Shown in pieces: positions 21,354 to 43,858 of a stretch of DNA of 64,000 bases. The notes below the pieces were generated by a model that worked only from the letters and a program-made list of their open reading frames with translations, did no database searches and was not told the origin of the DNA. Made by a program: the position numbers and the translations under genes. The DNA lies in NCBI GenBank assembly GCA_002686265.1, contig NZBA01000024.1, positions 1 to 64,000 on the forward strand, in the 5' to 3' direction. The stretch's first letter is position 1. The number at the start of each line of letters is the position of its first letter. Origin of the DNA: Planctomycetota bacterium (GTDB lineage Bacteria > Planctomycetota > UBA1135 > GCA-002686595).

Positions 21354-21362
21354 CTTCTCCGT

Positions 21363-24300: not shown

Positions 24301-26087
24301 AGCGCGCAAGCCTCGGGCGTGCGCGCGACCTGTTCCTCGAACAGCTCGTGGACGCGCGCCTCGTGCTCGTAGTCCGCCGCGGTCGTGTTCCAGTCGACGA
24401 GGATGTGTTCGCGCTCCGCGGAGTCGAGGAGGGCGACCTGTTCGAGGGGTTGCGTCGCGTCGCGGGCCAGGCTCGTCAGGTAGTTGGCGAGCTGGGCGGC
24501 GAGGGCCTCGAGGGCCTCGCCGTGGAGGCGCTGGGGGTCGCCGATCAGGCGGCAGGTGTCTCCGGCGGGCGAGACGACGATCGAGAGCACGGCGGCCGGT
24601 CGCGGCGTCACGGAACGGGCGCCTTCGCCCACGCTGACCGCCAGTTCGAGGGGCAGTTCAGCGGCGAATTCGCCGCGCTCGGCCAGGGCCGGGGAGCGGG
24701 GCGGGAGGTCGAGCAGCCAGGATCCGCGCTCGCGCAGGGGACCCAGGCTGGCGGCCAGGGCGCCCAGGGCCTCGGCGGCTGGGGCGCGGGGATCGAGGTC
24801 CACGCGCCAGGCCATCTCGCTCGCGGCGAAGCGCGTCGCCACCGGGGAGCGCTCGGCGGCGCTCTCGTCGGCGAAGGCCAGGTCGAAGCGTGAGCGACCG
24901 TCCACGCGCCCCAGGAAGGCGGCACACGCCGCCGCCACGACGTCGGCCGGCGGCAGGTCGGGACAGGCGGCGCACAAGGTTGCGGGGATCTCGACCGGCG
25001 TGGGCTGCGCGGGGGGGTGCCCGTTGGTCGAGGCGCTCGGCGCGTGCTCGGCCTGGGGCAGCTCCAGGGGTTCGAGTTGGGACAGGTGTTCGGCCCAGTA
25101 GACCTCGCCACGGGCGAGGTGGTCGGCCAGGCGCGTCAGGTCCTCGGCTTGGCTCTCGTCGAGGGAATCGATGAGCGTGCCCTGTTCGAGTCCCAGAGCC
25201 TCGATCGCCGCGCTCATCTCGAGCTTGCGTCCGCCGAGGGTGGTCAGGTGGGGGATCGAGAGGGCGCCGTCGCCGGTTTGCACCAGGAGATCGTAGCCGC
25301 CGATCTCGAGTACCGTCCCCGCCGGCCGGCTTGCGTCGCCCTCGCGGGCTAGTGCCTTGCCGACCGCCAGAACCTGGTTGCCGTGTACCAACTTGGGCAG
25401 GCCGAGGGGGTTGCGGTAGGGACCGAAGTCCAGAGCGCGCACGAGGGCTTCGAGTTGTACCGCGGGGCGCGTCCAGTCCAAGACGCAGGCCGCGTGCGGG
25501 CGGCGGTAGCGGGCGAAGTAGGTGCGCTCGCTCGCGTCCTGGTCGCGCTCGCTCAGCGTGTCCTGGCGCAGATTGCGTGCGAGTCGCTCGAAGGAGTCGA
25601 TGGCCGCCTCGAAGCAGCGCGTGTTGAGGGTGAGAGAGGTGTCGTCGGCGGCGACCGGGAACAGCGCCTGCTCGAGGATCGCGCCGGTATCGGCGCCGGC
25701 CTCCATGCGGTGCCAGGTGACGCCGTACTCGCGCTCGCCGTTCATCAGGGCCCAGGCCGGGGCGTTCAGACCCGCGTAGCGGGGCAGGGGGCCGTCGTGG
25801 AAGTTGATCGCCCCCCGGCGCGGGAGGCGCAGGATCTCCTCGCCGATCAGGGCCAGGTGGGCGATGCTGAACAGGTAGTCGAAGGGCGCCGCGCCGAGGC
25901 GGGCGGCGAGTCCCTCATCGGGATCGACGACCTCGAGGTCACGCTCGGCCGCCCAGGCGGCGATGCGCTCGGTGGAGGTGATGATGCCCTTCACCTCGAA
26001 TCCCTCCCTGAGCAGGATCTCCCCGCACTCGATCAGGAGCGAGTCGGCCCCGATCACGAAACAGCCCGGTCCTCTTACATTGTCCAT
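21363..26087 (-). CDS. NRPS: formyltransferase, half C domain, adenylation domain split by luciferase-like monooxygenase, PCP
   Basis: A 1574-residue loading module. Residues 1-180 are a formyltransferase like Met-tRNA formyltransferase (INFHDGPLPRYAG at 94-105, GADTG at 131-135), with its C-terminal domain to about 300. Residues 325-565 resemble only the second half of a condensation domain (VYWAEHLSQLEPLELP); no HHxxxDG motif is present. The adenylation domain has YTSGSTGEPKG (727-737) and SFDISVLEL (771-779), is interrupted at about 800-1165 by an FMN-type luciferase-like monooxygenase (GIDFAMFLWGNDA start), then resumes with HLQCTPSMA, MYGPTETTIW (1248-1257), YRTGD and NGKIDR (1445-1450). 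The PCP serine is Ser1504 in DIGGHSL. The specificity residues I extract, DILQLGMIWK, are one change from the glycine code I recall (DILQLGLIWK). The tail is basic. It heads an operon with the PKS. Confidence 0.93.
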   Translation of the reverse strand: MDNVRGPGCFVIGADSLLIECGEILLREGFEVKGIITSTERIAAWAAERDLEVVDPDEGLAARLGAAPFDYLFSIAHLALIGEEILRLPRRGAINFHDGPLPRYAGLNAPAWALMNGEREYGVTWHRMEAGADTGAILEQALFPVAADDTSLTLNTRCFEAAIDSFERLARNLRQDTLSERDQDASERTYFARYRRPHAACVLDWTRPAVQLEALVRALDFGPYRNPLGLPKLVHGNQVLAVGKALAREGDASRPAGTVLEIGGYDLLVQTGDGALSIPHLTTLGGRKLEMSAAIEALGLEQGTLIDSLDESQAEDLTRLADHLARGEVYWAEHLSQLEPLELPQAEHAPSASTNGHPPAQPTPVEIPATLCAACPDLPPADVVAAACAAFLGRVDGRSRFDLAFADESAAERSPVATRFAASEMAWRVDLDPRAPAAEALGALAASLGPLRERGSWLLDLPPRSPALAERGEFAAELPLELAVSVGEGARSVTPRPAAVLSIVVSPAGDTCRLIGDPQRLHGEALEALAAQLANYLTSLARDATQPLEQVALLDSAEREHILVDWNTTAADYEHEARVHELFEEQVARTPEACALVFGGERLTYRELDGRADRLASHLASLGAGSDRLVGLYLERSIDLVVAMLGVLKCGAAYLPLDPSYPSERLAFMLRDSRAPLVLTTDALADSVPADDARVVRLDGEAQAIAAATPADRPAPGDASNLAYVIYTSGSTGEPKGVMVEHRNVVSFFAGMDERIPHDPPGTWLAVTSLSFDISVLELLWTLARGFEVVLYADGGTSGSGAPERGIDFAMFLWGNDAGQGRKKYELLLESARFADNHGFSSVWTPERHFHAFGGPYPNSSLLSAAVAAVTERVGIRSGSCVAPLHHPLRIAEEWAVVDNLSEGRAGLGIAAGWQPHDFVLRPENYADNRECMFRDIETIRRLWRGEALQFPGPEGEAIERVTYPRPIQPELPIWLTTAGNPDTYERAGEIGAHLLTHLLGQPLEEVAEKIRSYRESLAAHGHDPEAFTVTLMLHTFIGEDIDEVRELVRGPMKAYLGSAVDLVKKFAWTFPAFKRPGGVDAPVVDIDVESLTGEEAEAILENAFLRYFDSSGLFGTPESCVERIDQLKAIGVDEVGCLVDYGLPTDVVLASLPALARLREAVQPAGGVAAASAASNGRDDSLPSLVARHGVTHLQCTPSMARMLLDHTESRAALAGLEHLLVGGEALPAPLAADLGDSLEGTLTNMYGPTETTIWSATQSLSGTEEAVPIGRPIANTRLYILDDGLQPVPVGVPGELYIGGDGVVRGYLDRPELTAERFVPDPFVGDSSPDGGTRRMYRTGDRARYRPDGVVEFLGRTDHQVKVRGHRIELGEIEAVLGRQETVESCAVIVREDAPGDQRIVAYHTPAAGADVGELREALSRSLPEYMLPTHFVPLDRLPLTPNGKIDRKVLPPPGELGGAAEAVFVAPEEGLEATLAEIWRSVLRREQVGVDDNFFDIGGHSLLVVQVHRSLREKVSRPVELTDLYRFPTVRSLADYLGTEDEPGATRAGADRGLKRRDAVRRRRGRRAQET

Positions 26088-26693: not shown

Positions 26694-28696
26694 CCGCCGC
26701 CCCCCCCGCCGCGAACCAGCCGCAGACGCCCCGCTGGGGCGTGCGTCGCGTGGCGCCCGTGGCGGCGGCCGCGACCGCCGCCTTGGGTTGCACCGGGCTG
26801 CACTGGGTCTCCCTGGCCGCCTCGCGGGTCTCCTTCGACCCGCCCTACCTGGCCCTGTGCGCCGGGCTCTCGTTGGCGGCCAGCGCAGCCCTGGGCGGCC
26901 TTGCGGCGCGGGCGCGCCTGTCGAGCGCCGCCTGCCTGGCGCTCTGGGCGGGTCTGGCCGGCGGCTTGCACGGCGGCCTGCTCGCCGCCGCGGCCATGAC
27001 CCTGGCGGGTGCGGCCGGTGTCTGGGTCGGGCGCGCGGGCGGCGACCGCCCCTACTCGGACGGACTCCTGGTGGGAGGCGGTTTCGCCCTGGCGGTCGGG
27101 GTGGCCCCCGCCCTGGCGGCGCGCCTGGGGGCCAGCGAGTCGGCCAGGCCGTTTCTCGCCGCCCTGGCCTTCCTCGGGCTCTGGGGCGCGGGACGCTGGC
27201 TGGCGGCGCGCCCGGCGCGGCGCCTATCGCAGGTCTCCCTGTTCGTCGCCACCGCCGGGATCCTGGTCGCCATGAGCGTCAGGCCCCTGTGGGATCACGA
27301 GCGCGCGGCGCGCCGCGGCGCGCCTCCCGTCTCGCCAAGGGAGGCGCGCGCCGAGTCCGGCAGGGGGCCGGACATCGTCCTCTTGGTGCTCGACACGGTG
27401 CGCGCCGACCACCTCTCGATCTACGGCTACGAGCGCGAGACGACGCCCGTGTTGGCGGCCCTGCTCGCGCGCCGCGGCGGCGGGCGCGCCCACCCCCTGG
27501 CCTTGTCCAACGGAACCTGGACCGTGCCCTCTCACGCCAGCCTGCTGACGGGCCTGTCGCCCTCCGAGCACGGCGCCCGGCTGGGCAATTCCTCGGGTAC
27601 GGCCTTCGCTCTGCGGGCGGATCTCACCCTGGCGGAGGCGCTGCGCGGCGTGGGCTACCGCACCCTCTCGATCTACGCGAACACCTGGTTGGGGCGCATC
27701 GCCGGAATGGAGCGCGGATTCGACCACTACCGCCAGAGCGGTCAGTTCGGTTCCGCGCCACCGATCGGCGAGCGCCTGCGAGGGCTCCTGCTGCCCTCGG
27801 TGGCCGCCGCCGGCGCCCGCCCCAAGGCCAGCGCCGCCGACGTGAGCGCCAAGCTCCTCGCGGCGCTGGACGCGGCCCGAGGGGGACCGGCTTTCCTCTT
27901 CGCCAACTTCGTAGACGCCCACGCGCCCTACCTCCCGCCGCGCGAGTTCCGGGGGCGCTTCGCTCCCTGGAGCCCGTTCGAGCGACCCGAGCACCTCGCG
28001 CTGGCCCAGAGCGAGGCGGAGAAGCGGCGCCTCGAGGCGCGCTACGACGAGTGCATCGCCGGGCTGGATCGCGATTTGGGGCTCTTCTTCGACGAGCTCG
28101 ATCGCCGTGGACGTCTGGCCGGTGCCTGGATCATCGTCACCTCCGACCACGGCGAGGCCTTCGGCGAGCACGGGGTCACCGAGCACGGCACGACCGTCTA
28201 CGGCGAGGTGACGCACGTGCCTCTGCTGCTGATCCCGCCGGAGGGGGTCGAGCTGGGAGAGCTCGTCGGCGCGGCTTCCCTGGTGGACGTGGCGGCGACG
28301 GTCGCGGCCGTGGCGGGGGCCGAGTGGCCCGGCGGCGGGCGCGACCTACGGCGCGGCGCCGGCGCGGGGGTGCCGCCCACGCTGGTCGAGTTCGACGGCG
28401 ACCCGCACAAGGCGCGGCGCCACGGCGAGCTGGCGCGCTTGCCGGCGCGGGCCCTGGTGGAGGGCACCCTCAAGCTCGTCTCCCATGGTGGCGCGAGCGA
28501 GCTCTACGACCTCGCCGTCGATCCCGGCGAGCGCCGCGACCTGGCCGCCGATCACCCGGACGATGTGCGGCGCTTGGAGTCCCTGCTCGGCGAGTGGGAC
28601 GCGGGCGTGCGCGAAGACGCGGGGTGGACCGGCGCCCTGCCGCCCTCCGAGCTGGAGGCCCTGCGCAAGATGGGCTATCTCGGCGGGGACGACTGA
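26690..28696 (+). CDS. Membrane-anchored sulfatase/alkaline phosphatase-fold enzyme with Thr at the nucleophile position
   Basis: A 668-residue protein with about five N-terminal transmembrane helices (25-200) and an extracytoplasmic sulfatase-fold domain from 225. Metal-binding DIVLLVLDTVRADHLSIYGYE (Asp235 included) and the later SDHGEAFGEHG are clear. The sulfatase signature CxPSR is replaced by TWTVPSHASLLTG, putting Thr278 where the formylglycine-forming Cys/Ser would be. Thr nucleophiles are known in phosphoglycerol and phosphoethanolamine transferases of the same fold, so a transfer or phosphohydrolase role on envelope material is as likely as sulfate-ester hydrolysis. The 3' end overlaps the convergent SGNH gene by 22 bases. 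Confidence 0.85.
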   Translation: MTAAPPAANQPQTPRWGVRRVAPVAAAATAALGCTGLHWVSLAASRVSFDPPYLALCAGLSLAASAALGGLAARARLSSAACLALWAGLAGGLHGGLLAAAAMTLAGAAGVWVGRAGGDRPYSDGLLVGGGFALAVGVAPALAARLGASESARPFLAALAFLGLWGAGRWLAARPARRLSQVSLFVATAGILVAMSVRPLWDHERAARRGAPPVSPREARAESGRGPDIVLLVLDTVRADHLSIYGYERETTPVLAALLARRGGGRAHPLALSNGTWTVPSHASLLTGLSPSEHGARLGNSSGTAFALRADLTLAEALRGVGYRTLSIYANTWLGRIAGMERGFDHYRQSGQFGSAPPIGERLRGLLLPSVAAAGARPKASAADVSAKLLAALDAARGGPAFLFANFVDAHAPYLPPREFRGRFAPWSPFERPEHLALAQSEAEKRRLEARYDECIAGLDRDLGLFFDELDRRGRLAGAWIIVTSDHGEAFGEHGVTEHGTTVYGEVTHVPLLLIPPEGVELGELVGAASLVDVAATVAAVAGAEWPGGGRDLRRGAGAGVPPTLVEFDGDPHKARRHGELARLPARALVEGTLKLVSHGGASELYDLAVDPGERRDLAADHPDDVRRLESLLGEWDAGVREDAGWTGALPPSELEALRKMGYLGGDD

Positions 28697-29724
28697 GCGG
28701 CGCCGCCGCCGAGGCCGAGGGTCGCCAGGAGGGGAGCGAGGGCGTCGGCGACGGCGCTGTGCCCCGCGGGGGTGAGGTGGCCGTCGAGGGGCCAGAAGGC
28801 GCGGTCCGCGCCGACCGCCCGCAGGGCCGTGGTGGGGTCGAGGACCTCGACCTCGAGACCTGCGAGCAGGGCTCGCGCGCGGGTGACGGGCAGGGCGGGG
28901 TCGTGGTTGGGATCCGCGCTCGCCTCGTCGCGCACCGTGTGCTCGGGGGGCAGGATGCAGATCGTCAGTGGCACCGCGTGCGAGCTGCAGAGCTCGACGA
29001 TGGCGGCCATGGTCTCCCCGAAGTGCACGCCCGCGCGGCTGAGGAAGGGCTCCTTCCAGGCCGCGATGCTGAACAGCTCGCGCGCGACCCGATCCTGGCG
29101 CGAGGGACGCAGGCGGTGCCAGGCCTTCGACGCCAGGCGGTAGAAGTGGGAGTTTCGTTTGACGTGGTCCCTGAGGCGCACGCGTCCGGTGGTCTTTCCG
29201 GCGTGCGGGTCCACGGGCTTGTCCCAGAGCGTGTCCTGGAAGTCGTTGCCGAGGTAGGGGGCGAGGAGCACCGCCCGCGGCAGCGGCCCGTCGGCGAAGC
29301 GATGCTCGAGCAGCATCAGGTACTGTCGCGGCCCGTAGCCCGGTACGCCGCAGTTCATGAAGGCGGGCTCGCCGCCGCCGGCTGCGTCGAGGAGGCCGAC
29401 GAAGGTCTGTTCATGGTCTACGCCGTTGCCGAAGGTGAAGGAGTCGCCCATGACCAGGACGCGTCCGCCGGCCGGGGCGCGGCGGCGCGACTCGGGCGCT
29501 GCCGAGCGGTGACCCTCGCCGTCGCTGTAGATCGTCCAGGCCGACTCGCCGGTGTCGACGAAGTTGTCCAGGTCCACGTCCACGGCGTAGATCGGCAGCT
29601 CGGGGTGGGTGCGGTAGATCGCCAGCCAGCTCGCGGCCTGTGGTTGGACGAAGCGCACGACCAGCTCGGCGGCGAGCAGGGCGAGCAGCAGGGTGGCGCA
29701 GGAGAGGACGAGCTTTCGCACCAT
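28675..29724 (-). CDS. Membrane-anchored SGNH/GDSL hydrolase
   Basis: A 349-residue protein with an N-terminal membrane anchor (residues 6-24) and an extracytoplasmic SGNH domain. The catalytic blocks are VMGDSFTFGNG (Ser in GDS), NCGVPGYGP, LGNDF and DGHLTPAGH (late His). Such proteins act as esterases or as O-acyltransferases on glycans. The ATG lies 8 bases from the shared promoter palindrome at 29730-29740, suggesting a leaderless transcript, and only 19 bases separate it from the divergent kinase start. The neighbourhood (sulfatase-fold enzyme, MBOAT-SGNH fusion) points to envelope polymer modification. Confidence 0.85.
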   Translation of the reverse strand: MVRKLVLSCATLLLALLAAELVVRFVQPQAASWLAIYRTHPELPIYAVDVDLDNFVDTGESAWTIYSDGEGHRSAAPESRRRAPAGGRVLVMGDSFTFGNGVDHEQTFVGLLDAAGGGEPAFMNCGVPGYGPRQYLMLLEHRFADGPLPRAVLLAPYLGNDFQDTLWDKPVDPHAGKTTGRVRLRDHVKRNSHFYRLASKAWHRLRPSRQDRVARELFSIAAWKEPFLSRAGVHFGETMAAIVELCSSHAVPLTICILPPEHTVRDEASADPNHDPALPVTRARALLAGLEVEVLDPTTALRAVGADRAFWPLDGHLTPAGHSAVADALAPLLATLGLGGGAAQSSPPR

Positions 29725-29729
29725 GGTCG

Positions 29730-29740
29730 GCTATCCTAGC
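29730..29740. promoter_or_regulatory. Palindromic bidirectional -10 element GCTATCCTAGC
   Basis: The 11 bases read GCTATCCT on the plus strand and GCTAGGAT on the minus strand, each matching GNTANNNT. The plus start codon (29744) lies 6 bases beyond the plus box and the minus start (29724) 8 bases beyond the minus box. The whole divergent gap is 19 bases, so there is no room for leaders or ribosome binding sites. Both transcripts are predicted to be leaderless. Confidence 0.5.
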
Positions 29741-29743
29741 GGA

Positions 29744-30703
29744 ATGACGCGCGAGGGAACCGATGGGAACGGAGCGAGTAACGGTGGTTGGAACGCGCAC
29801 CTCGCCGCTGATTTGACCGACCTGCTCGGCGCCCCGCCGATGGCGCTCGAGGATCAGGGCACGGGGCTGGACGCCCCCGACAGCACCCTCAAGTTGCTCG
29901 TGCGCGGCGGCGACGGTGCGCCGGCGGCCTTCGCGCTCTGCTCGGCGGCGGCCGCTCCACGGATGGTCGCGCGGGCGTGCGAGCGCGCGCGCGTGGCGCG
30001 CGCGGCCCTGGGCGAGGACTTGGGGAGCGTCATCATAGACCCCCTCCGCGAGGGAGATCGACAGGGACGAACGTGGTGCATCCTGCCGCTCCTGCGGACC
30101 CTCTCCGCCTCGCGCTTGATCTCGCTGTTCGAAAGGCGGCGCCTGGGGCCGGCCCTGTTCGCCTGGCTGCGGGCCGCCACGGCGCGGACCTTGCACGAGC
30201 CGGACGAGGAGGAGGTGGCGCGCGAGTTTCGGGTTCCCCTGGCCTTTCTGGCCGCCATGGAGGCTGCTCCCGTCGCTGTGCGGAGAGCGGGGGAAGCGGC
30301 CCTGGCGGGCCTCGAGACCGGGCGCTGGGAGCCGCGCCAGGTTCTGAGCCACAACGACCTGTGGCTCGGCAACGTCCTGATCGACTCGCGCCCCCAGAGC
30401 CCGCGAGCCGACCGGCGGTGGGCCGAGCGCTTCGTCCTGATCGATTGGCCCGGATCGCGGGTGCGCGGCCACCCGCTCTACGACCTGCTGCGCCTCTCCG
30501 ATTCCCTGAGAGTGGGGCGGCGCACCCTGCGCGCCGAGGTCGAGGCCCACGCGGCCCTACTGGGCTGCTCCGCGAGCGGAGCCCGCCAGCACCTCGTCGC
30601 GGCCCTGGCCTACCAGGCGGCGCATCTCGAACACTGCCCCGAGGAGGTCTTCGCCCGGGTCAGTACCGCTTGTCTGGAGCGATTGGGCGCCCTGGGATGT
30701 TGA
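29744..30703 (+). CDS. APH/choline-kinase-fold phosphotransferase
   Basis: A 319-residue cytoplasmic protein from ATG 29744. The C-terminal lobe carries the aminoglycoside-phosphotransferase-type catalytic loop LSHNDLWLGNVL (His-Asn-Asp with downstream Asn) and the metal-binding FVLIDWPGSR, then PLYDLLRL. The N-terminal lobe is poorly conserved and no clear ATP-binding lysine is seen. Family members phosphorylate small hydroxylated substrates such as aminoglycosides, choline, sugars or homoserine. Here the first of a plus-strand row with the prolyl-carrier dehydrogenase and MBOAT genes, it could phosphorylate a sugar or acceptor for the surface polymer, but that is only context. Confidence 0.8.
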   Translation: MTREGTDGNGASNGGWNAHLAADLTDLLGAPPMALEDQGTGLDAPDSTLKLLVRGGDGAPAAFALCSAAAAPRMVARACERARVARAALGEDLGSVIIDPLREGDRQGRTWCILPLLRTLSASRLISLFERRRLGPALFAWLRAATARTLHEPDEEEVAREFRVPLAFLAAMEAAPVAVRRAGEAALAGLETGRWEPRQVLSHNDLWLGNVLIDSRPQSPRADRRWAERFVLIDWPGSRVRGHPLYDLLRLSDSLRVGRRTLRAEVEAHAALLGCSASGARQHLVAALAYQAAHLEHCPEEVFARVSTACLERLGALGC

Positions 30704-30760: not shown

Positions 30761-31906
30761 ATGGACTTCTCTTGGACCCCCGAACAGGCCCAGCTGCGTT
30801 CGGCCGTGGCCGAGATGGCCGAGGGCGAGCTCAACGAGGGCCTCGCGGAGCGTGACAAGCGCGGCGAGTTCTCCCGCGAGGGATGGCGGCGCTGCGCCGA
30901 GATGGGGATCCACGGCCTGCCCGTGCCCGAGGAATACGGCGGCGCGAGCGCGGGTGCCCTGACCACCGTGGGCGTGCTCGAGCGCCTCGGCTACGGCTGC
31001 AAGGACAACGGCCTGGTCTTCTCGATCAACGCCCACATGTGGACCCTCGAGATTCCGCTCTTGGCCTTCGGCAGCGAGGAACAGAAGAGGCGCTTCTTGC
31101 CCGGGCTGTGCTCGGGCGCGCTGATCGGCGGTAACGCCATGTCCGAGCCGGACTCGGGCTCCGACGCCTACAGCCTGCAGACGACGGCCGTGCTTCGCGG
31201 GGATCGCTACGTGTTGAACGGCAACAAAGTCTTCGTCACCAACGCGCCGATCGCAGACCTGCTCTTGGTCTTCGCCAACGTGGACCCCGAGCGCAGGCCG
31301 AGCGGGGTGACCGGGTTCCTCCTCGAGCGCGATACGCCGGGGCTGACCCTCACGCGCCACGTCGAGAAAATGGGCCTCAAGACCTCGCCGATGGGGGAGC
31401 TGTTCCTCGACGACTGCGAGGTTCCCGCCCGGATGCGCCTGGGCAAGGAGGGCGCGGGGCAGAACCTGTTCACTCACTCGATGACCTGGGAACGCAGCTG
31501 CATCCTGGCCGGCGCGGTGGGAACCATGGAGCGCCTGCTGGAGACCTGCGTGGCCTACGCGAAGGGACGCAGGCAGTTCGGCCAGCAGATCGGGAAGTTC
31601 CAACTCGTCGCCACCAAGTTGGTGGACATGAAGGCCCGTCTGGAGACTTCGCGCGCCCTGCTCTACAAGGCGGCCTGGTTGAGGGATCAAGGACGGAGCA
31701 TCTTTCTGGAGGCTGCCATGGCGAAGCTGCAGATCAGCGAGTCGTGGGTGCAGAGCGCCCAGGACGCCGTCGCGATCCACGGCGGCTATGGGTACATGTG
31801 CGAGTACGAGGTCGAGCGCGAGTTGCGGGACGCCCTCGGCAGCCGGCTCTACTCAGGGACTTCGGAGATCCAGCGCTCGATCATCGCGGCGCTGATGGGC
31901 CTCTAG
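30761..31906 (+). CDS. Acyl-CoA dehydrogenase family, likely prolyl-carrier-protein dehydrogenase (PltE-like)
   Basis: A 381-residue flavoprotein with all acyl-CoA dehydrogenase blocks: GNAMSEPDSGSDAYSLQT (FAD/substrate), RRQFGQQIGKFQ (269-280) and IHGGYGYMCEYEVER. At the position of the usual catalytic Glu (Y-E-G-T) it has Ser365 (YSGTSEIQ); instead Glu244 in the MTWERSCILAGAVG helix matches the isovaleryl-CoA dehydrogenase placement. The next two genes encode a free carrier protein and a proline-type adenylation enzyme, the exact partner set of PltE/RedW-type enzymes that oxidise prolyl-S-carrier to pyrrole-2-carboxyl-S-carrier. Gene order and residues support this; substrate is inferred. 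A GC-rich imperfect hairpin follows the stop. Confidence 0.82.
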   Translation: MDFSWTPEQAQLRSAVAEMAEGELNEGLAERDKRGEFSREGWRRCAEMGIHGLPVPEEYGGASAGALTTVGVLERLGYGCKDNGLVFSINAHMWTLEIPLLAFGSEEQKRRFLPGLCSGALIGGNAMSEPDSGSDAYSLQTTAVLRGDRYVLNGNKVFVTNAPIADLLLVFANVDPERRPSGVTGFLLERDTPGLTLTRHVEKMGLKTSPMGELFLDDCEVPARMRLGKEGAGQNLFTHSMTWERSCILAGAVGTMERLLETCVAYAKGRRQFGQQIGKFQLVATKLVDMKARLETSRALLYKAAWLRDQGRSIFLEAAMAKLQISESWVQSAQDAVAIHGGYGYMCEYEVERELRDALGSRLYSGTSEIQRSIIAALMGL

Positions 31907-31995
31907 CAGCCCGCCCTCCGGAGAGGGGGCGCGGCAAGCCTCGCGCGCCGGCTCGATCGGCCCGCAGCCTCACAGCCCCCAGTTTCGCCGGAAGT

Positions 31996-32003
31996 GCTAT
32001 ACT
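31996..32003 (+). promoter_or_regulatory. -10-like box upstream of the carrier protein gene
   Basis: GCTATACT fits GNTANNNT, 166 bases before the ATG at 32170 within the 263-base gap after the dehydrogenase gene. It would give the carrier, adenylation and downstream genes their own promoter with a long leader. Confidence 0.35.
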
Positions 32004-32099
32004 GCGGCGTCTGCTCGCAGGCCGAATAGAGCCGTAACGCGTCCCCAGGGGGCATCCTCGGCCCGGATTCTGCCCAGGCGCTTCTCCCATCGATCTCAT

Positions 32100-32120
32100 C
32101 GCGGCCGCCCGCGGGCCGCG
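32100..32120 (+). other. Hairpin in the leader of the carrier protein gene
   Basis: CGCGGCC (32100-32106) and GGCCGCG (32114-32120) form a perfect 7-bp stem with a 7-base loop, 49 bases before the ATG. It could affect translation or be a terminator for the upstream gene; no known riboswitch is recognised. Confidence 0.35.
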
Positions 32121-32169
32121 GCGCTATCCGAAACAGAGCGCTTCCACACAACCAGAGAGCACTTCCAAG

Positions 32170-32424
32170 ATGGTCCCCAAGGAGCAAGTACAAGCCAGTG
32201 TCAAGCAGTTCATCCTGTCCGAGTTCCTGCCGGGAGAGGACGCGGGCGAACTCGAGACCACCACACCTCTCGTCAGCGCCGGCATCCTCGATTCGATCGC
32301 GACCCTCAAGCTGGTCACCTTCCTCGAGGAGCAGTTCAGCGTTCAGATCGATGCCCACGAGGCCGACGTAGACCATCTGAACACGGTCGAGGACATCTCG
32401 AACCTGGTGCTCTCCAAGCTCTGA
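32170..32424 (+). CDS. Stand-alone acyl/peptidyl carrier protein (PltL/DltC-like)
   Basis: An 84-residue carrier protein. The phosphopantetheine attachment serine is Ser42 in GILDSIATLKLV, a carrier pattern of the LDS type also found in DltC and PltL relatives. It begins MVPKEQVQASVKQF and ends SNLVLSKL, a complete four-helix domain without fused partners. The adenylation gene begins 16 bases after its stop, so this carrier is almost certainly its cognate acceptor. No phosphopantetheinyl transferase is in the window. Confidence 0.92.
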   Translation: MVPKEQVQASVKQFILSEFLPGEDAGELETTTPLVSAGILDSIATLKLVTFLEEQFSVQIDAHEADVDHLNTVEDISNLVLSKL

Positions 32425-32440
32425 TCGCGCCCGGCGGCGG

Positions 32441-34000
32441 ATGAACCTGCACGCCTATCTCGCGGCCGCGGCGCGCGCGCGGCCCGAGCACGCGGCTGTT
32501 GTCGCGCCTGGGAAGGGCGAGCTCGACTACCGCGCCCTCGACGATCTCTCCGACCGCCTGCGCGACCGCCTGGTCGCACTGGGCGTCGCCCCCGGGGACC
32601 GGGTCGGTCTGTGCCTGCGCAAGTCCGTCGACTCCCTCGCGGCGCTCTACGGCGTGCTGAAGTGCGGCGCGGCGTACGTTCCCATCGACGCGACGGCCCC
32701 CGCCCGACGCAACGCGTTCATCCTGGGCGACTGCGGCGTGCGGGCCGTGCTGGTCGAGGCGGGCCTGGCGCCTGCCCTGCTCGAGGCCCTCGACGCGGGG
32801 GCCGCGCGAACGCCGGCGCTGTTGCTGGAGGGCGTGGGCAAGGGCGACGGCCTGGCGGCGGCCCTCGACGCGATCGACCGCGCCTTGCCGGCGGAGCCCA
32901 CGCCCACGGTCGAGCGGGAGGACGACGACCTCGCGTACATCCTCTACACCTCGGGCTCGACCGGGAATCCCAAGGGTGTCGGAATCACCCACGGCAACGC
33001 GACGAGCTTCGTGGAGTGGGCCCACGGGGCGATCGGGACCGGGGCCGAGGACCGGTTCTCCTCCCACGCGCCCTTCCATTTCGATCTGTCGATCTTCGAC
33101 CTCTACGTGGCGGCCAAGAGCGCTGCGACCCTGGTGTTGGTCTCTGAGGAGGTCGGCAAGGAACCGCTCGGCCTCGCTCGGCTGATCGCCGAGGAACGCA
33201 TCAGCGTCTGGTACTCGACGCCCTCGGTGCTGAGCCTGCTCGCGCAGTACGGCAAGCTCGAAACCCACGATCTCTCGAACCTGCGCATCGTGCTCTTCGC
33301 GGGCGAGGTCTTCCCGATCGTGCACCTCGCGGTTCTGAAGGACCTGCTTCCCGCGCCGGTCTACTACAACCTCTACGGGCCGACGGAAACGAACGTCTGC
33401 ACCTACTACCGCATCCCCGAGCGCGTGCCGCCCGAGCGCCGTGACCCTTACCCGATCGGCGTCGTCTGCGAGCACCTCGCCGCGCGTGTCGTGGACGAGA
33501 GCGGCGCGGAGGTCGAGGTGGGGGGAGAGGGCGAGCTGTGCATCCGCGGCCCGGCGGTGACGCGCGGCTACTGGGGCCTGGAGGAGCTGACGGCGGCCAG
33601 CCTGTTGGCTGACGACGACGGCGGAGTCTGGTACCGGACGGGCGACCTGGTCGTCGAGGAGGAGGACGGGAACTACCGCTTCGTCGGGCGGGGGGACCGC
33701 ATGGTCAAGAAACGCGGCTTTCGGGTCGAGCTGGGCGAGATCGAGGCTTGCCTCTACCGTCACTCCGAGGTGCGGGAGGTCGCTGTGGTGGCCCTCGAAG
33801 ACCCCGACGGCGTGCGCGTGCGCGCCCACCTCGCGACCGACGACGGTGGGCGGATCTCGCTGATCAAGCTCAAGACCTTCTGCTCCGAGCACCTGCCGCT
33901 CTACATGGTTCCCGACGCCTTCGCCTTCCACGAGGCTCTGCCCAAGACCTCCACCGACAAGATCGACTACCAGGCCCTGTTGGGAGACGGCCGCTCCTGA
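32441..34000 (+). CDS. Stand-alone amino-acid adenylation enzyme, proline-type code (PltF/RedM-like; DltA-like role)
   Basis: A 519-residue AMP-forming ligase. ATP-binding YTSGSTGNPKG (169-179), LYGPTETNVC (311-320), YRTGDL (398-403), GRGDRMVKKRGFRVELGEIE and terminal STDKIDY (Lys507) are all present. Aligning to the GrsA core motifs gives specificity residues D215, L216, F219, then Y, L, A, L, V, C and K: DLFYLALVCK. I recall DLLYLALVCK as the proline code of pyrrole-pathway enzymes such as PltF, one residue different. The enzyme should load proline onto the carrier 16 bases upstream, for oxidation by the dehydrogenase. Functional parallel to DltA, which loads D-alanine on DltC for surface transfer, is inferred from the MBOAT gene downstream. 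Confidence 0.9.
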   Translation: MNLHAYLAAAARARPEHAAVVAPGKGELDYRALDDLSDRLRDRLVALGVAPGDRVGLCLRKSVDSLAALYGVLKCGAAYVPIDATAPARRNAFILGDCGVRAVLVEAGLAPALLEALDAGAARTPALLLEGVGKGDGLAAALDAIDRALPAEPTPTVEREDDDLAYILYTSGSTGNPKGVGITHGNATSFVEWAHGAIGTGAEDRFSSHAPFHFDLSIFDLYVAAKSAATLVLVSEEVGKEPLGLARLIAEERISVWYSTPSVLSLLAQYGKLETHDLSNLRIVLFAGEVFPIVHLAVLKDLLPAPVYYNLYGPTETNVCTYYRIPERVPPERRDPYPIGVVCEHLAARVVDESGAEVEVGGEGELCIRGPAVTRGYWGLEELTAASLLADDDGGVWYRTGDLVVEEEDGNYRFVGRGDRMVKKRGFRVELGEIEACLYRHSEVREVAVVALEDPDGVRVRAHLATDDGGRISLIKLKTFCSEHLPLYMVPDAFAFHEALPKTSTDKIDYQALLGDGRS

Positions 34001-34033
34001 GCGCTCCAGTTCTACCGGTGCGTCGTCGTTCGG

Positions 34034-34041
34034 GTTAGGAT
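34034..34041 (+). promoter_or_regulatory. -10-like box upstream of the MBOAT-SGNH gene
   Basis: GTTAGGAT fits GNTANNNT, 78 bases before ATG 34120 in the 119-base gap after the adenylation gene. Confidence 0.35.
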
Positions 34042-34119
34042 CTTGCACTCAACGCACGCACCGGCGTTTCTCCGCTCGCGACTTCCCCCCGGCTGTACTC
34101 GCCCACTCCAGCTCCCGTC

Positions 34120-36651
34120 ATGGACACAGGCTCGAAGACCCCGCCCGCCGCGGGCTCGCCCCCCCAATCGCCCTGGGCCCTGGGGAACCTCCTGCGCTTC
34201 GGCCTGACCGCCTTCCAGTTCGGCCTGCTGGTGCTGGTCGTGCGCGCCTTCCAGCTCGAGAGCCGCGCCTTCTTGCACGTGATGATCCTGGCCTGGGGCG
34301 GGTTCGTCGTCACGCAGTTCCTTCCCGGCCGACTGCGCATGCCGCTCTTCGCCTGCCTGTCCGTGATCTCGGTGCTGGTCGTGCTGGATCTCGAGGCGGG
34401 CTCCTGGCTGTTGGGCCTGGGCGTGTTGATGATCGGTGCCGCTCATGCGCCCGTGGGCCACGGGGCGCGCGTCGCCCTGGTGCTCGCTCTCGGTGCCGGC
34501 CTGGCCTTGCTGCGCGCGGGCGTCGCCGAAGCCCCTTGGCCTTCGGCCATCTGGCCCATCCTGGGCTCGATGTTCATGTTCCGCACGATGATCTACCTCT
34601 ACGATCTGCGGCACAAGAGCGCCCCCTTCAACGTCTGGAACGCCCTGGGCTACTTCTTCATGTTGCCCAACGTGTGCTTCCCGCTCTTCCCGGTCGTCGA
34701 CTACAAGACCTTCTGTCGCTCGCACGACAACGACCAGTCGTGGCTGATCCACCAGAAGGGAGTGCGCTGGATGCTGCGCGGTGCCGCGCACCTTCTGCTC
34801 TACCGCGCCATCTACCAGAACTTCGTCCTGGATCCGGCGCAGGTGGCCGACGGCCTGGACGCCGTGCGCGTGATCTGGTCGACCTACTTGCTCTATTTCC
34901 GCGTCTCGGGGGCCTTTCATCTGATCGCCGGGCTGCTGCACATGTTCGGCTTCAACCTGCCCGAGACATTCCATCTCTGGCTGCTCTCGAACAACTTCAC
35001 GGACTTCTGGCGGCGCATCAACGTGTACTGGAAGAACTTCATGCAGAGGGTCTTCTTCACGCCGGTGCACTTCATGTTGCGCCGGCGCGTGAGCCCGACA
35101 GCGGCCGTCGTCGGGGCGACCTTGGTGACCTTCATCGCCACCTGGTTCCTGCACGGCTATCAGTGGTTCTGGATCCGCGGTGTCTTCCCGACCTCCTGGC
35201 AGGACGCCGTGTTCTGGAGCCTCTTGGGCTTGATGATCACGATCAACGTGTACTGGGAGAGCAAGCACGGCCGCGCCCGGGCCCTGGGCAAGTTCAAGCG
35301 CACTCTGGCCTCGGAGCTCGGCATCGGCCTGCGCACGATCGCGATGTTCATCACGATCACGATGCTGTGGTCGATGTGGACCTCGGGCTCCTGGGAGCAG
35401 TGGGAGCTGGTGCTGGGTTACCTCGGCGAGTTGACCTTCGTGCAGGGCTTGGGGGTCGCGGGCGCCTTGTCCCTGCTGGGGGTCGCGGGCTCGCTCTGGG
35501 GACGCTCGGCTTCGGTGGCCGTGGTGGCCGGGGGCCTTGCCCGCCGCGAGGCCTCCAAGCCGACCTTCTGGCGCTCGAGCGCCCTGGTCTGCGCCTCCTG
35601 CGGCCTGCTCCTGACAGCGGGTCGCTCGCCCCTGTGGTTCTCCTTCGAGCCGCGTTTGGCCGAGGCCGTGGAGCGCCTGGCCACCAACAAGCTCAACGCC
35701 GTTGACGCCGGGCAGTTGGAGCGCGGTTACTACGAGGACTTGACCGACGTCAACCGCTTCAACAGCGAGCTCGCCGCCCTCTACAAGGACCGGCCGCCGG
35801 GGTGGAACGTCAACGACGCGATCCGTCAGACCCCGGATCAGTACCCGCCCTACGATCTCCATCCATCGGTGGAGGTGGAGTACAAGGGATCCACCCTGGT
35901 CATCAATCGCTGGGGCTTCCGCGACCGCGAGTACGAGAAGGAGAAACCGCCGGGGGTCTACCGCATCGGCTTCTTGGGCTCCTCGCACACGGCGGGGATC
36001 GGCGTCGAGAACCACGAGACCTACGAGAACGTCTTCGAGGATCGCCTGAACGCGGAGCTGGCGACCGACGAGCGGCGCTTCGAGGTGCTGAACTTCGCCA
36101 TCAGCGGCTACGGTCCCCTGTGCCGCCTGGCGACCCTCGAGACGCGCGCTCTGGAGTTCGACCTCGACCTGATGGTCAACGTCGGCATCGACGACTTGCC
36201 CTGGATCACCAAGGAGCTGGCGCACGCCGTCGACAAGGAGATCGACGTGCCCTACGCCGAGCTGGTCGAGCTGATGGCCGAGGTCGAAGTCCACAAGGGG
36301 CTGCCGCGCGTCGTGGCCGACAATCGACTGCCTCGCATCGCCGAGCGCGCCCTCGGGTGGATCTACGAGCGCGCTGCCGACGTCTGCGAGGAGAACGGCG
36401 TGGCGACTCTGATGACCTTCATCCCTCGTCCGGAGGAGAACGTGGCGCGCCCCGAGCACCTTGCCACCCAACTCGAGTTGGCCCGCGCGGCGGGCTACGA
36501 GGTGGTCGACACCGCGGACGCCTTCGCCACAGAGCCGGACCTGCCGTCCCTGTGGATCGCACCCTGGGACCGCCATCCGACGGCGCGCGGGCATCGCATG
36601 CTGGCCGACGCCGTGTTTGATGCCCTCCTCCCGCACCTGCGGGAGGACTGA
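34120..36651 (+). CDS. MBOAT O-acyltransferase fused to a C-terminal SGNH domain
   Basis: An 843-residue membrane protein. Residues 20-500 hold about ten or more transmembrane helices with the MBOAT signature NNFTDFWRRINVYWKNF (291-307) and the invariant His345 in TWFLHGYQWFW. Residues about 575-843 form an extracytoplasmic SGNH domain: LGSSHTAG (619-626, Ser622; the Asp of GDS is Ser621), ISGYGP (661-666), and PWDRHPTARGH (815-825; Asp817, His819). Family MBOATs (DltB, AlgI, PatA) pass acyl groups across the membrane, and partner SGNH proteins (DltD, AlgJ, PatB) transfer them to polymer; here both are in one chain. With the prolyl/pyrrolyl carrier genes just upstream, the donor is predicted to be carrier-bound. 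The GT2 gene follows after 30 bases. Confidence 0.9.
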   Translation: MDTGSKTPPAAGSPPQSPWALGNLLRFGLTAFQFGLLVLVVRAFQLESRAFLHVMILAWGGFVVTQFLPGRLRMPLFACLSVISVLVVLDLEAGSWLLGLGVLMIGAAHAPVGHGARVALVLALGAGLALLRAGVAEAPWPSAIWPILGSMFMFRTMIYLYDLRHKSAPFNVWNALGYFFMLPNVCFPLFPVVDYKTFCRSHDNDQSWLIHQKGVRWMLRGAAHLLLYRAIYQNFVLDPAQVADGLDAVRVIWSTYLLYFRVSGAFHLIAGLLHMFGFNLPETFHLWLLSNNFTDFWRRINVYWKNFMQRVFFTPVHFMLRRRVSPTAAVVGATLVTFIATWFLHGYQWFWIRGVFPTSWQDAVFWSLLGLMITINVYWESKHGRARALGKFKRTLASELGIGLRTIAMFITITMLWSMWTSGSWEQWELVLGYLGELTFVQGLGVAGALSLLGVAGSLWGRSASVAVVAGGLARREASKPTFWRSSALVCASCGLLLTAGRSPLWFSFEPRLAEAVERLATNKLNAVDAGQLERGYYEDLTDVNRFNSELAALYKDRPPGWNVNDAIRQTPDQYPPYDLHPSVEVEYKGSTLVINRWGFRDREYEKEKPPGVYRIGFLGSSHTAGIGVENHETYENVFEDRLNAELATDERRFEVLNFAISGYGPLCRLATLETRALEFDLDLMVNVGIDDLPWITKELAHAVDKEIDVPYAELVELMAEVEVHKGLPRVVADNRLPRIAERALGWIYERAADVCEENGVATLMTFIPRPEENVARPEHLATQLELARAAGYEVVDTADAFATEPDLPSLWIAPWDRHPTARGHRMLADAVFDALLPHLRED

Positions 36652-36681: not shown

Positions 36682-37683
36682 GTGAGACTGCTCGTCATCA
36701 TCCTCAACTACCGCACGGCGCAGCTTGCCCTCGATTGCCTGCGCTCCCTCGAGGAGGAGATCGCCACCTTGGGCGACGCGCGAGTGGTCGTGGTCGACAA
36801 TGCCTCGGGAGACGGGTCGGCGGAACGCATCGCGGCGGTCATCGAGCAGGAAGGATGGGGCGCATGGGTCGAGCTCCTGCCGCAGGCGACCAACGGCGGC
36901 TTCTCGGCCGGAAACAACCGCGCCATCGAGCTCGCCCTGGCGAGCGCTGACACGCCGCGCTACGTCCACCTGTTGAACTCCGACACCGTCGTGGGCCGCG
37001 GTGCTTTGGAGACGCTCCTGGAGTTCATGGACGCTCACCCCGACGTGGGCTTGGCGGGCAGCCGTCTCGACGAGCTCGACGGGACGCAACAGCACTCGCG
37101 CTTTCGCTTCCCCACGGCCTGCGGGGAGTTCGCCCAAGGCGCGTCCATGCGCGCCGTGAGCACGTTCCTGCGCGACCACATCGTGGCGCCTCCGCTGGTG
37201 GACGAGGCACATGAGATCGACTGGGTCGCCTTCGCCAGCGTGATGATCCGCGGTACGGTCTTCGAGGACGTCGGCCTGCTCGACGAGGGCTACTTCATGT
37301 ACTTCGAGGACACCGACTTCGCTCTGCGGGCGAGGCGCGCGGGTTGGTCCTGCTGGTACGTGCCGGACAGCCGCGTCGTGCACCTCGTGGGCCAGAGCTC
37401 CGGCGTGACCGCCCGCGGCGGGCGGGGCGCACGGCGCCCGCGCTACTGGTTCGACGCCCACGCGCGCTATCACCGCGAGAACCACGGACGGTTGGCGGAG
37501 TGGTGGATCGCCTTCGTCTGGCTCGCGGGCCATGGCTTCGGACGCCTGCGGAGGCTGTTGATGATGCGCACGGAGACCGAGCCTCCCTGGCTGTGGTGGG
37601 ACTTCCTGCGCTATCGCCTCACCTGGCGTCCGGCGGGTGGAGCGGGGCGTAGGGCGGCCGCTCAGGGTGCGCCGAAGGCGTAG
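36682..37683 (+). CDS. GT2 glycosyltransferase (rhamnosyltransferase-like)
   Basis: A 333-residue GT-A fold enzyme from GTG 36682. It has the nucleotide-sugar motif VVVDNASGDGSAERI, the FSAGNN block, LLNSDTVVG in the DxD position, and the acceptor-side EDTDFALRARRAGW (about 209-222). Cytoplasmic; expected to build a polymer or lipid-linked repeat for the same surface glycan as the MBOAT gene 30 bases upstream and the flippase convergent downstream. Its stop lies inside the flippase gene with a 22-base overlap. Confidence 0.85.
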   Translation: MRLLVIILNYRTAQLALDCLRSLEEEIATLGDARVVVVDNASGDGSAERIAAVIEQEGWGAWVELLPQATNGGFSAGNNRAIELALASADTPRYVHLLNSDTVVGRGALETLLEFMDAHPDVGLAGSRLDELDGTQQHSRFRFPTACGEFAQGASMRAVSTFLRDHIVAPPLVDEAHEIDWVAFASVMIRGTVFEDVGLLDEGYFMYFEDTDFALRARRAGWSCWYVPDSRVVHLVGQSSGVTARGGRGARRPRYWFDAHARYHRENHGRLAEWWIAFVWLAGHGFGRLRRLLMMRTETEPPWLWWDFLRYRLTWRPAGGAGRRAAAQGAPKA

Positions 37684-39059
37684 AACCCCGCGCTGATCAC
37701 CGCCGCGGAGGTGAGGAACGCCGCCGCGTCCAGGCCTGGGAGCCAGCCGCCGTGGCGGCGCAGGAGCGGAGCGAGGGGCACGTACTCGAGGGTGCGAGCG
37801 GCGGCGATCCCGAAAAGGAGGCCGCGGAAATCGCCCCAGCGATAGCCGAGGAAGGCGCAGGCCGCGAGCAGCACCACGCGTGCTACCTGAAGGCCGAGGT
37901 ACCCGAGGGAGTCGCCGGCCGCGAGGAGTTGACGGTCGGAGGTGATCGCCACCAGCCGTCCCACCGCCCCCAGGGCTAGGATTCGCACCATCCACCCGGC
38001 CTCGACGTAGCGCTCGTCGTAGAGCAGGGCGACCAGGTCGTCGCCGAGGATGGCCAGGAGCCAGGCGACGGGCAGGACGAGCACGAGGATCGTCCCGCGC
38101 AGCTTGAAGATCCTCCGGCGCAGGGCGGGGCCGGGGTCGGTGCGGATCTCGGAGAAGACCGGGTGCAGCACGTTGAAGGAGAGCTTGCCCGCCAGCTGTA
38201 GTGCCGTCTCGTTCAGGACGAAGGCGACCGAGTAGACCCCGAGCATCTCCTTGGTGAGGAGCTTGCCCAGCACGAGTCGGTCTCCCTGGGAGAGGAAGAA
38301 CGTGATCGCCGTGCTGAACAGGATCCAGCGCCCGAAGCGGTAGATGGAACGGGCGTGTTCGCGGTTGATCTCGAAGCGGTGCTTGCGCTCGGGGATCAGC
38401 CAGTAGCTGCCGATCGTGCCCAGGATGGCAGCCAGTACCGAAGCGCCCACCAGTACCCAGACCGACCTCCAGATCAGGGCCGCCGCGGCGGTGAGGGCGA
38501 GGGTGACGAGTTGGACTCCCAGGCCGAGCACGATCGCGCGTTGGGGGGTGACGCGCCGTGCGAGTGTGTAGCCGGCGGTGGAGCCGAAGCCGTTTATCAG
38601 GGAGGAGAGGCCGGCGAGGGGCAGCATCCAGCGCAGGAGCGGCTCCTCGTAGAATGTGGCCGCGGGCCAGGCCAGGAGCGAGATCAGCAGCCAGAGCGCC
38701 GCGCCGCGCACGATCTGCAGCACCCAGGTCGTGTCCAGGAAGTCGGGGTCGTCGCCGCGCTCGTGGGTCAGGACCGCGGCGCGCAGGCCGATGTCGGAGA
38801 AGAGCTGCACTCCGAGGGTGACGACGGTCACCAAGGTCATCAACCCGAAGGCCTCCGGAAACAGGAGGCGCGTGAGGATCAGGTTGTTGACCATGCTCAG
38901 CCCGCGGCTGAAGCCGATGCCGAGCACGGTCCAGGTGGAGGCGGCGAAGATCCGCGAGCGCAGGGAGGGCGGCGCGGCGGGGGTGACCCGCGCCGAGCGG
39001 TCCTGCGCCGCGCCGGATTCGCCGGATGCGCCGGGAGGTGAGTGGGGAAGCGTAGCCAC
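37662..39059 (-). CDS. Wzx-like polysaccharide flippase (oligosaccharide translocase)
   Basis: A 465-residue membrane protein with about 12 transmembrane helices and the MATE/MOP superfamily plan. The first helix region reads ASTWTVLGIGFSRGLSMVNNLILTRLLFPEAFG, the typical start of Wzx/RfbX-type O-antigen or repeat-unit flippases. GTG start at 39059. It would move lipid-linked repeat units across the inner membrane for the surface polysaccharide made by neighbouring glycosyltransferases. It shares a palindromic promoter-like box (39128-39138) with the divergent glycosidase-like gene. Confidence 0.88.
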   Translation of the reverse strand: MATLPHSPPGASGESGAAQDRSARVTPAAPPSLRSRIFAASTWTVLGIGFSRGLSMVNNLILTRLLFPEAFGLMTLVTVVTLGVQLFSDIGLRAAVLTHERGDDPDFLDTTWVLQIVRGAALWLLISLLAWPAATFYEEPLLRWMLPLAGLSSLINGFGSTAGYTLARRVTPQRAIVLGLGVQLVTLALTAAAALIWRSVWVLVGASVLAAILGTIGSYWLIPERKHRFEINREHARSIYRFGRWILFSTAITFFLSQGDRLVLGKLLTKEMLGVYSVAFVLNETALQLAGKLSFNVLHPVFSEIRTDPGPALRRRIFKLRGTILVLVLPVAWLLAILGDDLVALLYDERYVEAGWMVRILALGAVGRLVAITSDRQLLAAGDSLGYLGLQVARVVLLAACAFLGYRWGDFRGLLFGIAAARTLEYVPLAPLLRRHGGWLPGLDAAAFLTSAAVISAGFYAFGAP

Positions 39060-43138: not shown

Positions 43139-43858
43139 CTACTCGCCGAGACCGGTCAAGGCTTGGATGCCGTGGACGTACTTGGAGAGCTTGTCGAGGC
43201 GGAAGGGCAGGTGGCTCGCGATGTGCCCGGCTCCGTCGTCGTCCCGGCGGGCGTACTTGAGCTCGAGCACGATCAGTCCCCGTGCGCGGTGGCGTCTGCG
43301 TAGACCGACCGGTCGCGGCGCTGTGAACTCGAGATCGGTGTCGATGGTGAGGCGGAAGCGTCCGTCGGCCGTGAGCAGGTAGCGGCGATGGTAGCGATTG
43401 AACAGCGCCGGCAGGGAGCGGGCGAGGAGCTCACGGACGTCGATGGGCACCCCTGAGGCGACGGCGTTCCGGAGGGCGCCGCCGCGGGCGAGGAGCTCGG
43501 CGCGGGTCATGGGAGCGAGGGGGAAGCTGGGCTTCGTCCCGACCGTTCCGCGGCGTGTCTTCAGCTCCAGTACGGGGCGCGGCAGGATCCTGTCGGCCCC
43601 GCCCGCATCGTCGCCGTACCAGCGCACGCGCACCTTGCGCCGGTTCGCCATGCCGTTCACGTGGGCGGAGTAGTCCGAGAGGGTCGGGCTGTCGAGGTAG
43701 AGGTTGTTGACGAAGCGCGGCGGGAAGGCCTGGCGGAAGTGCGCCGGGTGCAGGCGCAGGAGCGCCTCGACCGCGGCGAGGTCGATTCCCTGCGCGTGGT
43801 ACTTCCGCTCGTAGCGGTAGTCCTCAGCGTCCGCTGGCTGTCGGCTCGGCTTCGCCAT
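43139..43858 (-). CDS. VTC-domain (polyphosphate polymerase-like) protein
   Basis: A 239-residue protein from ATG 43858 with the tunnel fold of VTC polymerases: ERKYHAQG (basic strand), VNNLYLDSPTLSDYSAH, RRKVRVRWYG, PVLELKTRRGTVGTK and a late LIVLELKYAR, all supplying Arg/Lys and Glu to a triphosphate tunnel. Eukaryotic VTC4 makes polyphosphate; bacterial relatives are common beside DUF4956 and CotH genes, as here, but their product is not established. Its start overlaps the end of the CotH gene by 35 bases, so it is the last gene of a three-gene operon. It is convergent with the wecG-like gene. Confidence 0.88.
   Translation of the reverse strand: MAKPSRQPADAEDYRYERKYHAQGIDLAAVEALLRLHPAHFRQAFPPRFVNNLYLDSPTLSDYSAHVNGMANRRKVRVRWYGDDAGGADRILPRPVLELKTRRGTVGTKPSFPLAPMTRAELLARGGALRNAVASGVPIDVRELLARSLPALFNRYHRRYLLTADGRFRLTIDTDLEFTAPRPVGLRRRHRARGLIVLELKYARRDDDGAGHIASHLPFRLDKLSKYVHGIQALTGLGE

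Follow-up and report, generated by a model that had tools for sequence, protein, structure and literature searches.

Enzymes that acylate bacterial surface polymers and enzymes that oxidise carrier-bound proline have been described as parts of different systems. In the Dlt pathway (DltA/C/X/B/D, D-alanylation of teichoic acid) a stand-alone adenylation enzyme loads a free carrier, and the MBOAT DltB and an SGNH protein pass the acyl group outward. PatAB, AlgI/J/X acetylation and the AT3-SGNH enzymes (OatA) likewise combine a membrane acyltransferase with an SGNH partner, and an acyl-Tyr relay is known for PatA and OatA; unlike Dlt, they use acyl-CoA. The described MBOAT-SGNH routes other than Dlt operate without a carrier, from acyl-CoA donors, and the described pairs are separate proteins (PMC12148441); Dlt is the carrier-fed route in the literature covered. 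On the natural product side, PltF/PltL/PltE (pyoluteorin), PigI/PigG/PigA (prodigiosin), the Bmp set and AnaC/AnaD/AnaB (start of the anatoxin pathway) share three functions: adenylation, a carrier, and oxidation of the prolyl-S-carrier. Here we analyse a four-gene operon, in a 64,000-nucleotide stretch of Planctomycetota DNA (contig NZBA01000024.1, positions 1 to 64,000; hereafter the window), that sets these three functions beside an MBOAT-SGNH fusion. Its probable role is to turn proline into a heterocyclic acyl thioester and to move the acyl group over the inner membrane onto an exported glycan.

Gene content of the operon

The operon comprises four predicted open reading frames (ORFs) on the plus strand (30761-31906, 32170-32424, 32441-34000 and 34120-36651), of 381, 84, 519 and 843 amino acids, with intergenic gaps of 263, 16 and 119 bases. 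A first-pass annotation of the window had given the same genes, strand and gaps, and these coincide exactly with the predicted ORFs. Profile searches placed the products, in order, in the acyl-CoA dehydrogenase, PP-binding, AMP-binding/AA-adenylation and SGNH families. The features are as follows.

30761..31906, plus strand: predicted prolyl-carrier-protein dehydrogenase, FAD-dependent, AnaB/PigA type, with Glu244 and an AnaB-type 'NAHMW' pocket segment (profile, alignment, tree)
32170..32424, plus strand: free-standing carrier protein, phosphopantetheine Ser42 (LDS) (profile, alignment)
32441..34000, plus strand: putative stand-alone L-proline-type adenylation enzyme, PltF-like, code DLFYLALVCK (profile, alignment)
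34120..36651, plus strand: predicted MBOAT-SGNH fusion acyltransferase, 843 amino acids (profile, alignment, fold search with an AlphaFold model)
35152..35154, plus strand: His345 of the MBOAT half (WFLHGYQW), invariant, candidate catalytic His by analogy with DltB and PatA (PMC12148441)
35725..35742, plus strand: GYYEDL, residues 536-541, candidate acyl-shuttle motif (compare FXYXXF of DltX/PatA, PMC12148441)
35818..36639, plus strand: SGNH domain, candidate triad Ser622 and Asp817/His819 (profile, alignment, fold)

The adenylation enzyme resembles PltF

The adenylation enzyme is of the stand-alone amino-acid type (TIGR01733, 364 bits, cut-off 317) and falls below both NCBIfam DltA models (259 and 253 bits, cut-offs 476 and 560). 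Its top single-domain match in the PDB is PltF (322 bits), with PigI at 223 and DltA at no more than 189. When the ten-residue code was read again from alignments with PltF and PigI, the DLFYLALVCK of the first-pass annotation was recovered; PltF has DLLYLALVCK, equal at 9 of 10 positions, and PigI DLFYIAWVCK (the last K being taken from the conserved A10 Lys). Homologues from other loci closely retain this code. Together, these comparisons point to activation of L-proline by a PltF-like enzyme rather than a D-alanine DltA-type one; preference for another substrate had been named in the first-pass annotation as a result that would refute its proposal, and the closest enzyme proved to be PltF. 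Ser42 of the carrier is invariant in all 14 aligned homologues; the 4'-phosphopantetheinyl transferase family is matched three times in the source genome.

The dehydrogenase groups with prolyl-carrier enzymes

The top NCBIfam scores of the dehydrogenase came from the PigA-type (445 bits, cut-off 500) and RedW-type (401 bits, cut-off 650) models, both below the equivalog cut-offs. Its nearest solved structure in a PDB sequence search was 4IRN (478 bits), then 6cxt (317) and 5zw0 (315), which we take to be AnaB, Bmp3 and PigA, in agreement with the molecule names of the entries; ordinary acyl-CoA dehydrogenases scored 281 bits or less. The catalytic Glu aligns as E244 in 'SMTWER', fitting the pattern SMxWE(R/K) and matching the PigA residue changed to Ala in 6af6 (compare 5zw0). 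The YEGT Glu of ordinary acyl-CoA dehydrogenases is replaced by Ser (YSGT). In a maximum-likelihood tree, from which the long-branched G075 row was excluded, the enzymes of the window, of the related genome G001 and of Microvirga are sister to AnaB (support 98/96), and those of genomes G430, G277, G234 and G461 are placed beside this group (83/85). A second branch, formed by G009, G021, G184 and G219, joins PigA and Bmp3 (87/91). The PDB ranking, the active-site alignment and the tree rule out a fatty acyl-CoA enzyme, a grouping that the first-pass annotation had named as adverse to its proposal; to judge from its sequence, the window protein is a prolyl-carrier dehydrogenase.

The acyl group had been proposed to be pyrrole-2-carboxyl. 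This is a particular case of the reading given above, so that their probabilities overlap, and we rate it at somewhat under an even chance. The PigA and RedW models score highest on the enzyme, and PltE, RedW and Bmp3 are described as pyrrole makers, with AnaB listed among the pyrrole-forming enzymes on account of its catalytic Glu (PMC10849742). In addition, a PltA-type halogenase, an enzyme known to act on pyrrolyl-S-carrier, is present in modules of the sister branch. However, the window enzyme is 54% identical to AnaB and 42% to PigA and Bmp3, and the product of AnaB is described as (S)-pyrroline-5-carboxyl-AnaD (PMC3252866). N90 and W94 are common to AnaB and the first branch; in the second branch, as in PigA and Bmp3, position 90 is C or A and position 94 is L, C or F (C/A and C/F in PigA and Bmp3). 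Our guess, from this correlation with three reference enzymes, is that the two residues set the reaction outcome. Furthermore, the window contains no halogenase, and none of the halogenase-like proteins of the source genome exceeds 37% identity to the PltA-type one. Pyrrole as the settled product was dropped once the dehydrogenase grouped with AnaB; since it does so, and not with PigA/Bmp3, either product may be formed in the window, and 1-pyrroline-5-carboxyl could take the place of pyrrole-2-carboxyl there. For the G184/G219/G009/G021 branch, pyrrole is better supported. The earlier interpretation is thus partly supported: its core idea, a Plt-like set with a Dlt-like MBOAT-SGNH in a glycan locus, withstands those of its refuting conditions that could be examined, and the pyrrole identity is uncertain.

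The membrane half of the fusion is modelled with a DltB-like fold

The SGNH half of the fusion matches PF13472 (GDSL_2-type, E=9e-13) and not the DltD family PF04914 in a Pfam search. The membrane half eluded sequence methods: Pfam MBOAT models had no match in any of 14 homologues, a PDB sequence search also failed to identify it, and the NCBIfam DltB model TIGR04091 gave a weak match (E=4.7e-4, 19.5 bits against a cut-off of 375). A fold search succeeded. With an AlphaFold model of the fusion (mean pLDDT 79.9, pTM 0.72), the top PDB matches of this half were DltB (6bug, E=8.7e-8; 8jem), then HHAT and PORCN, and the SGNH half resembled SGNH enzymes such as TesA. As modelled, the membrane half is a divergent MBOAT with a fold nearest DltB, and the fusion proposed earlier is supported by PF13472 for one half and by the fold match for the other.

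His345, Tyr537 and Tyr538 are invariant in the homologue alignment, and from residue 421 to 595 no column but those of the two Tyr residues is invariant. Their motif, which in most homologues reads GYY[ED]x[LIV], falls in a loop modelled with low confidence (531-564), beyond the final long helices of the membrane half. Where MBOAT and SGNH are encoded separately, as in G277, G234, G430 and G461, the SGNH protein carries the motif directly after an N-terminal hydrophobic segment. The Tyr of the FXYXXF hexapeptide serves as acyl shuttle in DltX and PatA (PMC12148441), and by analogy the Tyr-Tyr motif is a candidate for this role; we keep the role as a hypothesis because the first and last positions of the motif depart from FXYXXF. 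The candidate triad of the SGNH half (Ser622, Asp817/His819) is intact. The homologues of loci L044, L045, L046 and L047 have GTC or GSC as nucleophile motif, with Cys in place of Ser, and a degraded Asp-His block; near two of them lie a FAAL-type ligase and a carrier.

Conceivably, acetyl-CoA or another acyl-CoA is the donor for the fusion, and the carrier pathway has another acceptor. Other MBOAT-SGNH systems such as PatAB do use acyl-CoA (PMC12148441), and family members in G031 and G312 have no carrier match in the stretch examined. We consider this unlikely: the nearest fold is that of DltB, a carrier user, and linkage to a carrier recurs in proline-type and FAAL-type loci alike.

The four genes form a conserved module

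A set of 120 relatives was searched, and co-occurrence was counted in 392 Planctomycetota genomes with presence thresholds of E<=1e-50 for the MBOAT and E<=1e-98 for the dehydrogenase. The MBOAT was found in 12 genomes, the dehydrogenase in 10 and both in 8; that is, both genes occur in 8 of the 10 dehydrogenase-bearing genomes against 0.3 expected (hypergeometric 1.7e-12, relatedness ignored). A scan of genome contigs matched the sister species and gave one weak Bacteroidetes hit. The four genes share 82-94% identity with their counterparts in G001, a second species of the genus, which keeps the order kinase-like gene, dehydrogenase, carrier, adenylation enzyme, MBOAT-SGNH and family-2 glycosyltransferase (GT2) at 73-94% identity. 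The full set is linked in six other Planctomycetota genomes (G001, G021, G184, G219, G277 and G234), which with the window show three gene orders. A fourth order occurs in the cultured alphaproteobacterium Microvirga sp. VF16, where the full set lies together on megaplasmid pMVF16-2 (identity to the window: carrier 58%, adenylation enzyme 55%, dehydrogenase 67%, MBOAT-SGNH 40%). The Microvirga fusion gene is followed by a GT2 gene, weakly similar to that of the window, and the exopolysaccharide locus around the module is complete, containing Wzy_C, Wzz, three GT1 genes and an initiating sugar transferase; transposase-like ORFs lie on one side. Glycosyltransferases adjoin the module of G277 and a flippase that of G234. 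Linkage persists through the shuffled gene orders, which rules out a chance neighbourhood. The four genes belong together as a conserved cross-phylum module; whether the MBOAT gene co-occurs with the other three in related genomes had been asked at the outset, and it does.

A probable carrier-fed route to an exported glycan

The surroundings of the operon in the window are those of an exopolysaccharide locus, with a flippase, GT2s, a WecG-type glycosyltransferase, a sugar transferase, Wza-/Wzz-like export/chain-length genes and an exosortase. The genes nearest the operon are listed below; the kinase-like protein had no Pfam match.

36682..37683, plus strand: GT2, starting 30 bases past the fusion gene, adjacent in G001 too
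37662..39059, minus strand: Wzx-type flippase (Polysacc_synt_3; profile)
29693..30703, plus strand: kinase-like protein, 57 bases upstream of the dehydrogenase gene, kept in G001, of uncertain membership (HND...N...IDW motif by eye)

By homology with the systems above, the observed gene set and motifs suggest four steps. First, the PltF-like enzyme would use ATP to activate L-proline and load the free carrier, as its code and family indicate. Second, the dehydrogenase would oxidise the prolyl-S-carrier, either to 1-pyrroline-5-carboxyl (AnaB-like, two electrons) or to pyrrole-2-carboxyl (four electrons), the two being about equally probable in this genome. Third, the MBOAT half would draw the acyl group from the carrier via His345, as DltB does from DltC, and place it on the Tyr of GYYEDL at the outer side. 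Fourth, the SGNH half would accept the group on Ser622 and hand it to a hydroxyl group on the exopolysaccharide that the surrounding glycosyltransferase, flippase and export genes presumably make. The acceptor glycan, suggested by gene context, is the weakest step.

Several observations weigh against this route. G430, G461 and G009 each have at least one part on a different contig, and no glycan genes were found adjoining the modules of G184 and G219. The MBOAT assignment depends on fold plus one weak profile match, and the route as a whole is read from genes. Finally, the dehydrogenase and adenylation enzyme occur without the MBOAT beside NRPS or other natural product genes in G071, G068, G156 and Roseovarius, and in the window itself the dehydrogenase gene is preceded, at a distance of 4.7 kb, by a nonribosomal peptide synthetase (NRPS)/polyketide synthase (PKS) pair.

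This pair, absent from the first-pass annotation, is on the minus strand (14898-26087): a one-module PKS with thioesterase (14898-21353, KS-AT-KR-DH-ACP-TE) and an NRPS (21363-26087, formyltransferase-A-PCP with a luciferase-like monooxygenase embedded in the A domain). It adjoins the export/chain-length genes and the exosortase. The acyl-carrier might be its starter unit, leading to an anatoxin- or pyoluteorin-like product, with the MBOAT-SGNH an unrelated surface-polymer gene or a small-molecule acylator. In anatoxin synthesis AnaB does supply a PKS (PMC3252866), and similar adenylation and dehydrogenase genes stand in NRPS clusters elsewhere. Yet the assembly line has A and PCP domains of its own and the opposite strand, and no NRPS or PKS was seen adjoining the module in G021, G184, G219, G277, G234 or Microvirga, where the MBOAT-SGNH is always there. 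The starter-unit explanation seems improbable to us. As to the MBOAT-free clusters, prolyl-carrier dehydrogenase and adenylation genes occur in loci L081, L082, L097, L098, L100 and L109, in some of them alongside aminotransferase-PP-binding, halogenase or NRPS genes; these are likely separate natural product loci.

On the carrier-fed route to a glycan, the module by inference works like Dlt yet is not Dlt. Both have a stand-alone adenylation enzyme, a free carrier, a membrane acyltransferase (here a candidate DltB-like MBOAT) with an SGNH partner and a Tyr motif, here a candidate shuttle. The operon differs in its proline-type enzyme and added oxidation step, in the fusion of MBOAT with a GDSL_2-type SGNH domain instead of DltD, in the position of the Tyr motif between the domains, and in an exopolysaccharide context in Gram-negative-type bacteria; no DltX-like gene was noted, no search for small membrane proteins having been made. 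From the Plt, Pig and Bmp sets it differs in that its product would go to the MBOAT-SGNH and not to an assembly line, and in that the window dehydrogenase falls outside the PigA/Bmp3 branch; a PltA-type halogenase is shared by some relatives. The dehydrogenase is sister to AnaB and the three functions are those of the anatoxin start, but in the operon they are linked to MBOAT-SGNH. A literature search, with most subscription journals outside its coverage, found no description of such a system, and nothing relevant on pyrrole with MBOAT, DltC with MBOAT and proline, pyrrole with polysaccharide, or Planctomycetes with MBOAT. If the route is correct, it would be a second kind of carrier-fed MBOAT-SGNH system, in which natural product chemistry (proline oxidation, and halogenation in relatives) decorates surface glycans, and it would widen the range of groups known on bacterial surfaces. 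The plasmid copy in a cultured Microvirga makes the module testable.

Halogenases and other ligases in related modules

A halogenase lies beside the module in G184 and G219.

L079:14709-15998: PltA/Mpy16-like halogenase of a planctomycete genome, beside the module
L080:5044-6333: PltA/Mpy16-like halogenase of a planctomycete genome, beside the module

The G184 enzyme matches PltA (398 bits), Mpy16 (396) and ChlB4 (395) best, the next match scoring 178, and the PltA-type halogenase of relatives retains WxWxIP and the conserved Lys. A more distant halogenase adjoins the MBOAT of G009. At L080:2628-5069 a B12-binding radical SAM protein fused to an Asp/Asn beta-hydroxylase domain adjoins the halogenase.

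The MBOATs of G105, G012 and G041 are instead near FAAL-type ligases, a label that is our own reading of an AMP-binding match and the look of the sequence; a carrier is present in G012 and G041. The window MBOAT is sister to the G105 MBOAT (98/97), and because of this relationship donor cassettes appear to have been swapped on one acyltransferase family. A FAAL-type ligase beside the same acyltransferase would be expected if the latter is fed by an interchangeable ligase-carrier cassette. We tentatively propose, at slightly less than an even chance, a cross-phylum carrier-dependent MBOAT-SGNH family that decorates exopolysaccharides from such cassettes with dehydroproline or pyrrole, in some lineages with halogenated pyrrole, and in others with FAAL-derived fatty-acyl-type groups.

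Other genes were noted in the window as well. A second SGNH protein with a weak AlgX match (28675-29724, minus strand) lies between a sulfatase and the operon and is also present in the sister species. VTC-domain, CotH/beta-helix and DUF4956 genes stand side by side at 43139-47333 (minus strand).

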